From positions 63,627 to 127,626 of the forward strand of contig NZ_JAMGSL010000008.1 in NCBI RefSeq assembly GCF_025195125.1: a DNA stretch of 64,000 nucleotides, in the 5' to 3' direction. Below the pieces are notes generated by a model. That model did not search any database, was not told the DNA's origin, and saw only the letters and a list, made by a program, of their open reading frames with translations. The stretch comes from Streptomyces sp. Je 1-79. Its GTDB lineage: Bacteria; Actinomycetota; Actinomycetes; Streptomycetales; Streptomycetaceae. Numbering within the stretch: the first letter of the stretch is position 1; every line of letters starts with the position of its first letter. This document shows, in pieces, positions 20,506 through 27,604 of the stretch. The translations under genes were made by a program, and so were the position numbers.

Positions 20506-21204
20506 TCAGACCTCGCAGCCGCCGTCGACGTCGCAGGCCGCGGCGTCGCCGCCGACCGGCTGGAGCGCCCGGCCCTGCCACGCCTGCTCCAGAGCCTGGG
20601 TGAAGACCTCGGCGGGCTGGCCGCCGGAGATGCCGTAGCGGCGGTCAAGGACGAAGAACGGGACGCCGTTCGCGCCCAGCTCGGCCGCCTCGCGCTCGTC
20701 CGCCCGTACCGCTTCGGCGTACGCGGTCTCGTCGGCGAGGACGGCGCGGACCTCGGCCTCGTCCAGGCCGGCCTCGGCCCCGAGCCGTACCAGCGTCTCG
20801 GCGTCGAAGACGGACCGCTCCTCCGCGAAGTTGGCGCGGTAGGCGAGGTCGAGCAGCTCGTTCTGCCGGCCGCGCTCCTTGGCGAGATGGAGCAGGCGGT
20901 GGATGTCGAAGGTGTTGCCGTGGTCCCGGCCCTCGGTGCGGTAGCCGAGGCCCTCGGAATGCGCGTTGGAGGCGACGTGCGCCTCCATGGAGCGGGCCTC
21001 GTCCAGGGTCCGCCCGTACTTCTTCGCCAGCATGTCGATCACCGGAGCGGTGTCACCCTTGGGCCGGTTCGGGTCGAGCTCGAAGGAGCGGTGCACGACC
21101 TCGATCTCGTCGCGGTGGGCGAAGGCCGCGAGCCCCTTCTCGAAGCGGGCCTTGCCGATGTAGCACCACGGGCAGGCGATGTCGCTCCAGATCTCGACGC
21201 GCAT
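20506..21204 (-). CDS. FrnE-like DsbA-family oxidoreductase
   Basis: This 232-residue protein is a DsbA-superfamily member of the FrnE type, with the thioredoxin-fold CPWCY motif at residues 11-15 (MRVEIWSDIACPWCYIGK). The family is cytoplasmic; there is no signal peptide. The all-alpha insertion (DPNRPKGDTAPVIDMLAKKYG to HLAKERGRQNELLDLAYRANF) and the cis-Pro segment NGVPFFVLDRRYGISGGQPAEVF are as expected. FrnE proteins are named for a polyketide locus and in Deinococcus act as oxidative-stress disulfide isomerases; the role here is likely redox protection. The C-terminus is extended with two extra cysteines (AACDVDGGCEV). Start ATG 21204; upstream frame is not coding. Confidence 0.9.
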   Translation of the reverse strand: MRVEIWSDIACPWCYIGKARFEKGLAAFAHRDEIEVVHRSFELDPNRPKGDTAPVIDMLAKKYGRTLDEARSMEAHVASNAHSEGLGYRTEGRDHGNTFDIHRLLHLAKERGRQNELLDLAYRANFAEERSVFDAETLVRLGAEAGLDEAEVRAVLADETAYAEAVRADEREAAELGANGVPFFVLDRRYGISGGQPAEVFTQALEQAWQGRALQPVGGDAAACDVDGGCEV

Positions 21205-21266
21205 GTTCTTGCTTCTCTCCGGGGTCGTGGGGTGTTCCGTCGCCGGAACGCCCCGGCCGGGCGGTT

Positions 21267-21743: not shown

Positions 21744-21917
21744 GACAACGGGGACGCGAGGGGCGGGACGGCGGTTGCGGACGGGCCGGACGAGGGCGAT
21801 CCCGCTGGTGGGCGGCGCCCCTTGGACGTTCCGCCGAGGGGAGCCGGCGCGCCTTGGTCGGTACGGCACCTTGCGTACGGGTGTGCGGGAGCACTGGACT
21901 TCCACGGTCGACACGGC

Positions 21918-21967
21918 GGCATCCGGTACCGGTCGCCGGTATGGCATCCGGTACCGGTCGCCGGTAT
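21918..21967 (+). promoter_or_regulatory. Duplicated operator-like 25-bp repeat
   Basis: Two perfect, directly abutting 25-bp units. Each holds the dyad TACCGG-TCG-CCGGTA (21926-21940 and 21951-21965) and an overlapping CCGGTACCGG palindrome. The array ends 12 bases before the AMP-ligase start, next to its GGAAGGAAG ribosome site, where a bound protein could block transcription or translation start. The regulator is not identified. Confidence 0.75.
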
Positions 21968-21979
21968 GGAAGGAAGCGC

Positions 21980-23359
21980 ATGACACCCCTGCCCGACGGC
22001 CGCACACCCTGGCCCGAGGAGTTCGTCGACCGCTACTGGGCGGCCGGGCACTGGCGTGGCAACACGCTGGACAACCTGCTGCGCGGCTGGGCCCTGCAGT
22101 ACGGACCGCGGACCGCGCTCGTGCACGGCGGCACCCGCGTCACGTACGCGCAGCTGAACCGGCGGGTGGACCGCATGGCCGCCGGATTCCGGCTGCTCGA
22201 CCTCCGGCCCGGGCAACGGGCCGTCGTGCAGCTGCCGAACGTTCCCGAGTTCGTGGTCACCGTGTTCGCGCTGATGCGCGCCGGGGTGGCCCCCGTGTTC
22301 TGCCCGCTCCCGTACCGCGCGTCCGAGGTGTCCCGCCTCGTGCGGGTCACCGAGGCCGTCGGCTATGTCGGACCCTCGACGTACGAGGGCTTCGACCACA
22401 CGGCGATGGCGGCCGGTATCGCGACCCAAGGGCCCTTCCTGCGACGGGTGTTCACCTACGAGGAGCCGGGCGCCGAGTCCCCGTACGGCGGCTTCACGAC
22501 CGACCCGTCGGGCTGCCACTACGTCCCGCTGGGCTCCGTCGACGCCCCGCCGGCACCGGCGCGCGCGACCAGCGCCGACCAGGTGGCGTTCTTCCTGCTC
22601 TCCGGCGGGACCGACGGGGCTCCCAGGCTCGTTCCGCGTACCCACGACGACTACGCCTGCCAAGCGCGGGCCGCCGCCGAGCTCGTGTCGCTCACCGAGG
22701 ACGACGTGTACCTGGCCGCGCTGCCCGCGGGCTCCACCTTCGCCTTCGGCTGCCCCGGCGTCGTCGGCACCCTCTCCGTCGGCGGCACCGTCGTCCTGGC
22801 CGCGGACCCGGAACCCGCCGCGTGCCTTCCGGTCGTCGAACGGGAGCGGGTCACCCTCACCTCGGTGGACCCCGGCGCAGCCCGACGCTGGCTCGACGCG
22901 CTCTCCTCCGTCGGTGCCGACGTGAGCAGTCTGCGTCTCCTCCAGGTCGGCGGGGCGCTCCTGCCGCGGGCGGACGCCGAACGTGTGGGACCCGAGCTGG
23001 GCTGCCGCCTCCAACAGGTCTTCTCCATGGCCGAGGGGCCGCTCACCTTCACCCGGCCCGCCGACCCGGACGAGACCGTGTTCACCACGCAGGGCCGCCC
23101 GCTCTCGCCGGACGACGAGCTCCGCCTGGTCGACGCCTTCGGAGAGGACGTGCCCGACGGGGAGCCCGGCGAACTCCTCGCCCGCGGCCCGTCCGTCCCG
23201 CGCGGCCACCTCCGGACCCCCGACGAGGACGCCCGCGCCTTCACCCCCGACGGCTGGTTCCGCACCGGCACCCTGGCACGACGCACCCCGGACGGCGACC
23301 TGGTGGTGACCGGGGGCATTCGCGGGGGCACGGCCGAGAACCGCGAAGCCGCCCCTTAA
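21980..23359 (+). CDS. Truncated DhbE/EntE-like aryl-AMP ligase, probably inactive
   Basis: The 459-residue product follows 2,3-dihydroxybenzoate/salicylate-AMP ligases (DhbE/EntE/YbtE type), which load aryl acids for siderophores or antibiotics. Alignable blocks include the N-terminal FVDRYWAAGHWRGNTLDNLL, the phosphate loop SGGTDGAPRLVPRTH (residues 208-222), LLQVGGALL and QQVFSMAEGPLTFTR. Two things are wrong. The A7 motif reads FRTGTL where the family has YRTGDL, so the ribose-binding Asp is Thr431. The frame also ends in ENREAAP where the last ~80 residues, with the A10 lysine, should follow. Family members run about 540 residues. It is either a relic or a non-catalytic binder. Start: ATG with GGAAGGAAG. 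No siderophore genes lie nearby. Confidence 0.75.
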   Translation: MTPLPDGRTPWPEEFVDRYWAAGHWRGNTLDNLLRGWALQYGPRTALVHGGTRVTYAQLNRRVDRMAAGFRLLDLRPGQRAVVQLPNVPEFVVTVFALMRAGVAPVFCPLPYRASEVSRLVRVTEAVGYVGPSTYEGFDHTAMAAGIATQGPFLRRVFTYEEPGAESPYGGFTTDPSGCHYVPLGSVDAPPAPARATSADQVAFFLLSGGTDGAPRLVPRTHDDYACQARAAAELVSLTEDDVYLAALPAGSTFAFGCPGVVGTLSVGGTVVLAADPEPAACLPVVERERVTLTSVDPGAARRWLDALSSVGADVSSLRLLQVGGALLPRADAERVGPELGCRLQQVFSMAEGPLTFTRPADPDETVFTTQGRPLSPDDELRLVDAFGEDVPDGEPGELLARGPSVPRGHLRTPDEDARAFTPDGWFRTGTLARRTPDGDLVVTGGIRGGTAENREAAP

Positions 23360-25511: not shown

Positions 25512-25539
25512 GCGGCTCTCAGGAACTCCTGAGAGCCGC
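25512..25539 (+). terminator. Intrinsic terminator of the secreted Cys-rich gene
   Basis: 13-bp perfect stem (GCGGCTCTCAGGA and its complement) closed by two bases, 20 bases after the stop. Confidence 0.8.
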
Positions 25540-25557
25540 CGCCCATACCGACCGACG

Positions 25558-25839
25558 ATGGGCCACGTGCAGTGCCGCCGACGGTGGTCCCTGGGCATCT
25601 CCGGTGCGAACATGCACGACAGCCAGGGCCTGGAGCCGCTCGTCCGGGGCATTCCGCCCGTCCGCTCCCGCCGTGGGCCCCGGCGCCGTCGGCCGGCGAA
25701 ACTCCATGCCGACAAAGGATGCGACTACGGCCACCTGTGTCGACGGCTCCACCGGCGCTATGAACGGAAGGCCGAGCACTTCCTCGCCTTCGTCGGCATA
25801 GCCGCAAGCCTCATTGGCTACCGAAGGCTCACAGGCTGA
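25558..25839 (+). mobile_element. IS5-family transposase remnant, internally deleted
   Basis: The 93-codon frame carries recognisable IS5-family DDE transposase sequence: SGANMHDSQGLEPLV, GIPPVRSRRGPRRRRP, KLHADKGCDY, then CRRLHRRYERKAEHFLAF and SLIGYRRLTG. In full-length relatives a segment of roughly 35-40 residues, with the catalytic glutamate region, sits between DKGxDYxHL and RRLHRRYERKA; it is missing here. The N-terminal two thirds of the gene is absent too. No terminal inverted repeats are visible at the edges. This is a dead fragment marking past insertion into the island. Confidence 0.82.
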
Positions 25840-25847
25840 GGCGCCGG

Positions 25848-26071
25848 TTACCCGATGAGCTGTTCCGTCGCCCGGCGATACTGTTTCGACCGACTTTCCG
25901 TCAGTTCCCACGGAGCAGGCAGGCCGTCCTCCCGCATCCGGGCTTCCGCCTCTTGCCGGTATGCGACCTCGAAGCGGATCAGACTGTCGAAGGAGTCGAT
26001 ACGGACGGCGGACGGCGGACGGCGGACGGCGGACGGCGGACGGCCAGGATGCCGCCGCCGTCGAGGCGCAC
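25848..26071 (-). pseudogene. Small ORF disrupted by a heptanucleotide repeat
   Basis: Reading the minus strand, the last 50 codons before a TAA at 25848-25850 have real protein character (IDSFDSLIRFEVAYRQEAEA, RMREDGLPAPWELTESRSK, QYRRATEQLIG) but no start in frame. Upstream, past six copies of a 7-bp unit, a GTG at 26071 opens RLDGGGILAV in another frame. If the unit were present once, four or seven times the two would join; with one copy the protein would be MRLDGGGILAV-RIDSFDSLIRF..., about 62 residues. With the present six copies it is out of frame. It starts just after the aldehyde dehydrogenase stop. Function unknown. Confidence 0.6.
26003..26044. repeat. Six-copy 7-bp tandem repeat (GGACGGC)n
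   Basis: Six perfect, uninterrupted copies of GGACGGC. Because 7 is not a multiple of 3, each gain or loss of a unit changes the reading frame of the small minus-strand ORF spanning it. Confidence 0.97.
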
Positions 26072-26091
26072 TCCCCCGTCGTCACCAGGGA

Positions 26092-27585
26092 TCAACGGCG
26101 GGGCAGTCCCAGCGGGTTGCCGTCTCGCAGCTCCTGCGGGAGCAGGTGCTGCGGGGTCGACTGGTAGGTGACCGGGCGCAGCCAGCGTTCGATCGCGGTC
26201 GCGCCGACCGAGGTGGCGGTGGAGGTGGTGGCCGGGTAGGGCCCGCCGTGGTGCTGCGCGCCCGCCACCGCCACGCCCGTCGGCCAGCCGTTGACGAGCA
26301 CGCGGCCCGCCAGCGGGGTCAGTTCGGCGAGCAGGGAGGCGGCCTCCGGGTCCTCCTCCGCCATCTGGAGCGTGGCGGTGAGGTTGCCGGGGAGCAGGCC
26401 GAGGACCGCGGTGATCTCGTCCCGGGAGGAGTAGCGGGCGACCAGGGTCACGGGGCCGAAGCACTCGTGGAGGATCGCGCTGTGCGCGCCCTTGAGCAGG
26501 ATCTCGGCGTCGAAGGTCAGGAAACCCGCGTTGACGGTGTGCGGACCGCCCGGGCCCGGGTGGACGGGCGCGGCGACGCCGGCGATCTGGGCGAGCTCGT
26601 AGGTCGCGGTGAGGAAGCGGTCCCGCATCCGGTGGTCGAGCATCACGCCGGGCTCGGACTCGCTGATGGCGTCCGTGAGGGCGGAGACGAAGCGGTCGCC
26701 GGCCTCGCCCGTGGGCGCCAGGACGAAGCCGGGCTTGGTGCAGAACTGCCCCTGGCCCAGGGTCACCGAGGCCGCGAGGCCGGCCCCGATCTCCGCGGCC
26801 CGCTCCTCGGCGGCGGCCGCGGTGATCACGACCGGGTTGAGCGAGCCGAGTTCGCCGTGGAAGGGGATGGGGACGGGCCGGGCCGCCGCCGCGTCGAAGA
26901 GCGCCCGCCCGCCCGTGACGGAACCGGTGAAGCCGGCCGCCGCGACCAGCGGGTGGCGGACGAGGTCGACACCCGCGTCGAAGCCGTGGACCAGGACGAC
27001 CACGTCCTCGGGCAGCCCGACCTTGGCCGCGGCCCGGCGCAGGAGCGAGGCGCAGAGCTCGGAGGTGGCCGGGTGGTCCGGGTGGGCCTTGATCACGACG
27101 GGGCAGCCGGCCGCGAGGGCGCTGGCGGTGTCGCCGCCGGGGACGGAGAAGGCGAGCGGGAAGTTGCTGGCCGCGTAGACGGCGACGACCCCGAGCGGGA
27201 CCTTCCAGCGGCGCAGGTCGGGGCGGGGCGGGGTGGTCGTCGGGTCGGGCAGGTCGATCCGTACGTCGAGGAAGGAGCCCTCGTCGACCACGTCCGCGAA
27301 GGACCGCAACTGGGCCGTGGTGCGCGCGAGTTCACCGGTCAGCCGGGCCGGTCCGAGCGCGGTCTCGGCGTCGGCGGCCTCGATGACGTGCGGTCCCGCC
27401 TCGTCGAGGAGGTCCGCGGCGGTACGGAGCAGGGCCGCCCGCGTCGCACGGTCGGCGAGCGCCTCGCGGGCGGCGGCCGCGGCCCGGACGGCCCGGTCGA
27501 TCTCCTCGGCTGTGGCCTCCACCGCAACCTGCTCCCGTGGCTTCCCCGTCCGGGGGTCCACACTCCACACTGGTTCAGCTGCCAC
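26092..27585 (-). CDS. Aldehyde dehydrogenase (2-oxoglutarate semialdehyde dehydrogenase-like)
   Basis: This 497-residue NAD(P)+-dependent aldehyde dehydrogenase has the family's Rossmann part (YAASNFPLAFSVPGGDTASALAAG, VIKAHPDHPATSE, AGFTGSVTGGRALF), the general base in ELGSLNPVVI and the catalytic cysteine in LGQGQFCTKPGF. The HGELGSLNP form and the SxPGGDTASAL variant are those of the alpha-ketoglutaric semialdehyde (2,5-dioxopentanoate) dehydrogenase group. That would be the last step of oxidative uronate or pentose breakdown, matching the udh and dehydratase genes at 38.8-40.8 kb. A GTG at 27585 gives good spacing to GGAGGGG; ATG 27591 is too close to it. It diverges from an IclR gene. 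Confidence 0.88.
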   Translation of the reverse strand: MAAEPVWSVDPRTGKPREQVAVEATAEEIDRAVRAAAAAREALADRATRAALLRTAADLLDEAGPHVIEAADAETALGPARLTGELARTTAQLRSFADVVDEGSFLDVRIDLPDPTTTPPRPDLRRWKVPLGVVAVYAASNFPLAFSVPGGDTASALAAGCPVVIKAHPDHPATSELCASLLRRAAAKVGLPEDVVVLVHGFDAGVDLVRHPLVAAAGFTGSVTGGRALFDAAAARPVPIPFHGELGSLNPVVITAAAAEERAAEIGAGLAASVTLGQGQFCTKPGFVLAPTGEAGDRFVSALTDAISESEPGVMLDHRMRDRFLTATYELAQIAGVAAPVHPGPGGPHTVNAGFLTFDAEILLKGAHSAILHECFGPVTLVARYSSRDEITAVLGLLPGNLTATLQMAEEDPEAASLLAELTPLAGRVLVNGWPTGVAVAGAQHHGGPYPATTSTATSVGATAIERWLRPVTYQSTPQHLLPQELRDGNPLGLPRR

Positions 27586-27604
27586 AGCCATGCCCCTCCG
27601 CGCG

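Follow-up and report, generated by a model that had tools for sequence, protein, structure and literature searches.

Probable decay and slippage, rather than an on/off switch, at a six-unit heptanucleotide array in Streptomyces sp. Je 1-79

The array described here lies in a window of 64,000 nt of the Streptomyces sp. Je 1-79 genome (contig NZ_JAMGSL010000008.1, positions 63,627 to 127,626), by which we mean the whole stretch of DNA analysed. The source genome of 7.28 Mb is assembled in 30 contigs, and the contig harbouring the array comprises 440,886 bases. The features of the locus are listed in Table 1.

Table 1. Features at the array locus (positions in the window)
Feature	Position	Strand	Remarks
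Heptanucleotide array, six perfect GGACGGC units (GCCGTCC on the gene strand)	26003-26044	.	Two heptamer-like units in homologues
Gene remnant, 3' part	25848-26074	-	About the last 65 residues and stop, with 28 extra bases; homologues L010, L077-L085
Spacer of 8 bp between two convergent stop codons	25840-25847	.	Equal length in 6 of 10 homologous loci
IS5-family transposase gene remnant, 3' part	25587-25839	+	5' half absent; in-frame internal deletion of 120 nt near 25738-25748
Aldehyde dehydrogenase gene, neighbour, apparently intact	26092-27591	-	Pfam Aldedh, 144 bits; relatives

The six perfect units are present as reported in the preliminary description of this DNA. At 43 bases, the perfect period-7 run is far beyond chance: the longest one was 19 bases when 100 first-order Markov sequences as long as the window were examined. 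It is the sole site with at least three exact GGACGGC units in its own genome. At the level of the genus such arrays are not rare: those with at least four exact units were found in 37 of 392 genomes including the own one (36 of the 391 others), and a control unit, reversed but not complemented, formed arrays in 74 of 392 (hand count). Heptamer arrays of this type are thus a common feature of these GC-rich genomes. They can also be long, as exemplified by L061 with 11 GGACGGC units. For twenty other GGACGGC arrays, open frames and GC3 gave no decisive indication of a location inside genes.

From the array, about 50 open minus-strand codons lead to the TAA at 25848-25850. The earlier suggestion that they represent real protein was borne out, since they match the C-terminal end of an uncharacterised 177-residue protein. 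In a plasmid DNA search the best match was NZ_CP108363.1, which carries a 177-codon hypothetical gene, and the C-terminus of its product aligns with the 50-residue tail. A protein search of the 392 genus genomes returned the own locus and matches in 4 of the 391 others, with open frames of 204, 272, 183 and 99 residues. A scan of genome contigs revealed nine loci, each matching residues 1-177; these apparently overlap the four genus matches in two genomes (L084 with L008, L085 with L006). A DNA search of 199 relatives gave matches in 138 genomes, and among the matches listed none but the own one extends past query position 304, which lies in the transposase part.

The remnant adjoins the aldehyde dehydrogenase gene and is without a native start. 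When it was compared base by base with its homologues, approximately 30 bases upstream of the array were found to be homologous (27 of 30 match L079), followed by similarity at chance level. Since homology ends there, about 112 of the 177 codons are missing. The remnant is thus homologous to intact genes, shorter than these, and frameshifted by the array.

Ten intact genes (L010 and L077-L085) were used to determine the copy number in homologues. All ten have 177 codons plus stop and two heptamer-like units at the site of the array, with no extra units, which is in line with the earlier proposal of an expansion within a once-intact gene. Both units are perfect in two genes, one is perfect and one altered in six, and both are altered in two (L010 and L085). 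The site reads TGG CCG TCC GCC GTC CGC in L081 and TGG CCG TCC GCC GTC CGT in L082, in each case exactly two perfect GCCGTCC units. With two units placed between them, the halves of the window copy align without gaps to nine of the ten homologues (L084 gave no match), best to L079 with 88% over 103 nt. Judged from the homologues, the ancestral number is two, and the present six would correspond to two plus four, adding 28 bases and a frameshift. Against this counts that the closest homologue, L079, reads GCCGACC GCCGTCC at the site and not two perfect units.

The comparison also indicates which reading frame is the homologous one. Alignment to the intact homologues gives ECASTAAASWPSAV for the codons upstream of the array. 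These codons share their frame with the listed ORF 25519-26085, and this frame joins the tail at 2, 5 or 8 units, as follows from an ancestral number of two. The preliminary description had instead started from a GTG at 26069-26071, in a frame different from that of the 50 codons, and had stated that only 1, 4 or 7 units join the two. The arithmetic is correct, one unit giving 62 residues from this GTG, but the homologous frame needs 2, 5 or 8. Nor is the GTG supported as a start: homology extends upstream beyond it to about 26074, so that it sits within the homologous stretch but not in the homologous frame, and it is immediately preceded by the purine run GGGGGA, leaving no ribosome-binding-site spacing. 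The 62-residue protein is therefore an accidental reading, the homologues having 177 residues in the other frame. With 2 units a tail of 69 residues could be read, and with 5 units one of 76, but only via a second GTG at 26083-26085 with no ribosome-binding site visible. As the first 112 or so codons are gone, no copy number restores the protein, and the tail presumably yields no functional product, whatever the number of units.

The gene on the other side of the 8-bp spacer is also incomplete. It matches annotated IS5 transposase genes at the DNA level, and its best stretch in the NCBIfam profile NF033580 covers positions 143-182 of 258 with 44.8 bits, the cut-off being 110. It is thus a fragment of the IS5 family and not a working member. 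The match starts abruptly at 25587, roughly half of the plasmid gene of 809 nt has no counterpart, and 120 internal bases are missing in comparison to L010, L077 and L079. In NZ_CP108363.1 an annotated IS5-family transposase gene and the 177-codon gene are convergent, their ends lying 8 bp apart. The window junction matches that of the plasmid, with the transposase stop ending at 25839, 8 bp and the TAA. The same distance to an IS5 3' end was found in six of the ten loci (L010, L077, L078, L079, L080 and L081); for the other four (L082-L085) BLAST gave no IS5 match. This convergence suggests that the 177-residue-protein gene may travel with the IS element. Compared with the gene of the WP_327135844.1-type protein (NZ_CP108363.1; L077-L081), the window copy shares the C-terminal part, the stop position and the 8-bp IS5 junction; it differs in lacking approximately codons 1-112 and in having four additional heptamer units.

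Based on these observations we consider it highly probable that the locus contains a decayed remnant associated with a mobile element, in which the array grew from two units to six by slippage. An IS5-family transposase gene and the convergent 177-residue-protein gene would once have formed a module beside the aldehyde dehydrogenase gene. Both would then have decayed, the transposase gene by loss of its 5' half and the 120 internal bases and the 177-codon gene by loss of its first 112 or so codons. The tail would have held an adjacent pair, GCCGTCC GCCGTCC, within W-P-S-A-V-R codons. Replication slippage at this pair, the mechanism that we infer, would have added four units (28 bases), giving six and shifting the frame; truncation and expansion could have occurred in either order. 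This account draws on the match of the 50 residues to the C-terminus of longer proteins, on the unexpanded site in all ten intact genes (with two perfect units in L081 and L082), and on the end of homology about 30 bases upstream of the array. It further draws on the broken state of the adjoining transposase gene, on the 8-bp junction common to six of ten loci, and on the frequency of arrays of GGACGGC and of the control unit in the genus. The absence of a stop in the remaining 50 codons counts against it. The window copy has nine nonsynonymous and four synonymous private changes, which is weakly consistent with relaxed constraint. As proof of decay the substitutions were rejected, because the changes are too few and intact relatives are also rich in nonsynonymous ones: of four such relatives, three show private changes that are all nonsynonymous (3, 2 and 1), and in the fourth there is one as against four synonymous.

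An on/off switch, as proposed in the preliminary description, would mean that heptamer slippage toggles a protein of 62 to 76 residues in the manner of simple-sequence contingency loci. The array does resemble such loci, in that a perfect tandem unit not divisible by three lies in a former coding frame, six perfect copies are prone to slip, and the frame from the GTG opens at 1, 4 or 7 units. In Streptomyces, phase variation that depends on a repeat tract is reported at the G tract of pglX in the Pgl phage-resistance system of Streptomyces coelicolor (PMC4365076), where, as here, changes in the length of a repeat tract in a coding sequence shift the frame. However, pglX is intact there and its switching frequency has been measured, and nothing comparable is present at the window locus. 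Likewise, a study on Haemophilus influenzae (PMC2651432) reports heptanucleotide repeats in the hmw1a and hmw2a promoters and one within the hmw1a ORF of strain PittAA. These, too, are heptamers in perfect tandem, and a change in their number alters the reading frame or the spacing of the promoter, but as described they vary between strains and belong to intact surface-protein genes, whereas two thirds of the window gene are missing and its homologues are arrayless. No number of units yields a complete gene that has a start, and the array is not kept in homologous genes, more than two units occurring in none of the ten intact homologues. Together with the non-homologous frame of the GTG and the purine run abutting it, this makes a functional switch very unlikely, and that the short protein is toggled has hardly any probability. 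A real switch would make this a heptamer contingency locus of an unusual kind for Streptomyces, but the evidence speaks against one. The counter-case which the preliminary description had itself named, a simple dead gene, fits best.

Another possibility is a domesticated C-terminal fragment, retained for some function and still translated, with ribosomes reading through or re-initiating past the end of the aldehyde dehydrogenase gene; the array would then be a transient mutation. The remnant begins no more than about 20 bases from the stop of that gene on the same strand, its frame upstream of the array is the aldehyde dehydrogenase frame, and the 50 codons are still free of stops. However, translation from the nearest GTG (26083-26085) through six units would continue in a wrong frame to 25519, and L032 and L033, the closest aldehyde dehydrogenase relatives, have a different sequence after the stop; a protein search of their genomes did not find the tail. 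Such domestication is very improbable. A variant combining it with frequent slippage, in which 5 or 8 units would yield a short C-terminal peptide from the aldehyde dehydrogenase message, a domesticated and switchable micro-protein, is scarcely credible. Finally, an error of sequencing or assembly could have produced the array length, given that the array occurs at this place in one genome only and that the assembly consists of 30 contigs. Yet 42 bases are short in comparison to ordinary reads, the contig is long and similar arrays exist in 36 of 391 other assemblies, so that an artefact is extremely improbable.

On the reading that we prefer, decay with slippage, the locus looks like a case of ordinary decay and not like an on/off switch. 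It illustrates that a frame-switching repeat can be misleading when a single sequence is considered, and that homologues reveal together how many units there were ancestrally, which frame is the true one and that the gene is truncated. Our literature search yielded no paper combining slipped-strand mispairing, a tandem repeat, Streptomyces and a pseudogene.

Regarding the 177-residue family, the protein of L010 or L056 gave no Pfam and no NCBIfam match, the 50-residue tail had no Pfam match, and PADLOC had no match for six rows of set A1. A phage or widely plasmid-borne gene family was considered and dropped, with no phage match and two plasmid records, one of which is the query's own source. 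SUKH-type (immunity-protein) genes lie near two intact family members, in L006 at 655-1479 (SUKH_6, 28.0 bits versus a cut-off of 27) and in L056 at 1105-1560 (SUKH-3, 91.7 bits). A role of the family in a toxin-immunity island would be a guess.

The aldehyde dehydrogenases of 20 out of 22 relatives run 4-9 residues past LPRR. Truncation of the window gene at the junction was nevertheless rejected, as the two closest relatives (L032 and L033) likewise end in LPRR-stop. In eight of the 22 relatives, of which flanks of at most 1.5 kb were compared, a match to window positions 20578-21234 lies 0.1-1.4 kb past the end of the aldehyde dehydrogenase gene, and the same distance in the window is about 4.9 kb. 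The two closest relatives showed no match to this region within flanks of up to 1.5 kb. The distances in the eight relatives suggest, but do not prove, that the intervening stretch of about 4.9 kb is inserted material. The same stretch contains, besides the gene remnant, a (2,3-dihydroxybenzoyl)adenylate-synthase-like frame at 21854-23359, which matches profile positions 4-428 of 526 and thus probably lacks the C-terminal domain. Upstream of this frame, at 21918-21969, there is a perfect 25-bp tandem repeat of 2.1 copies (GGCATCCGGTACCGGTCGCCGGTAT).
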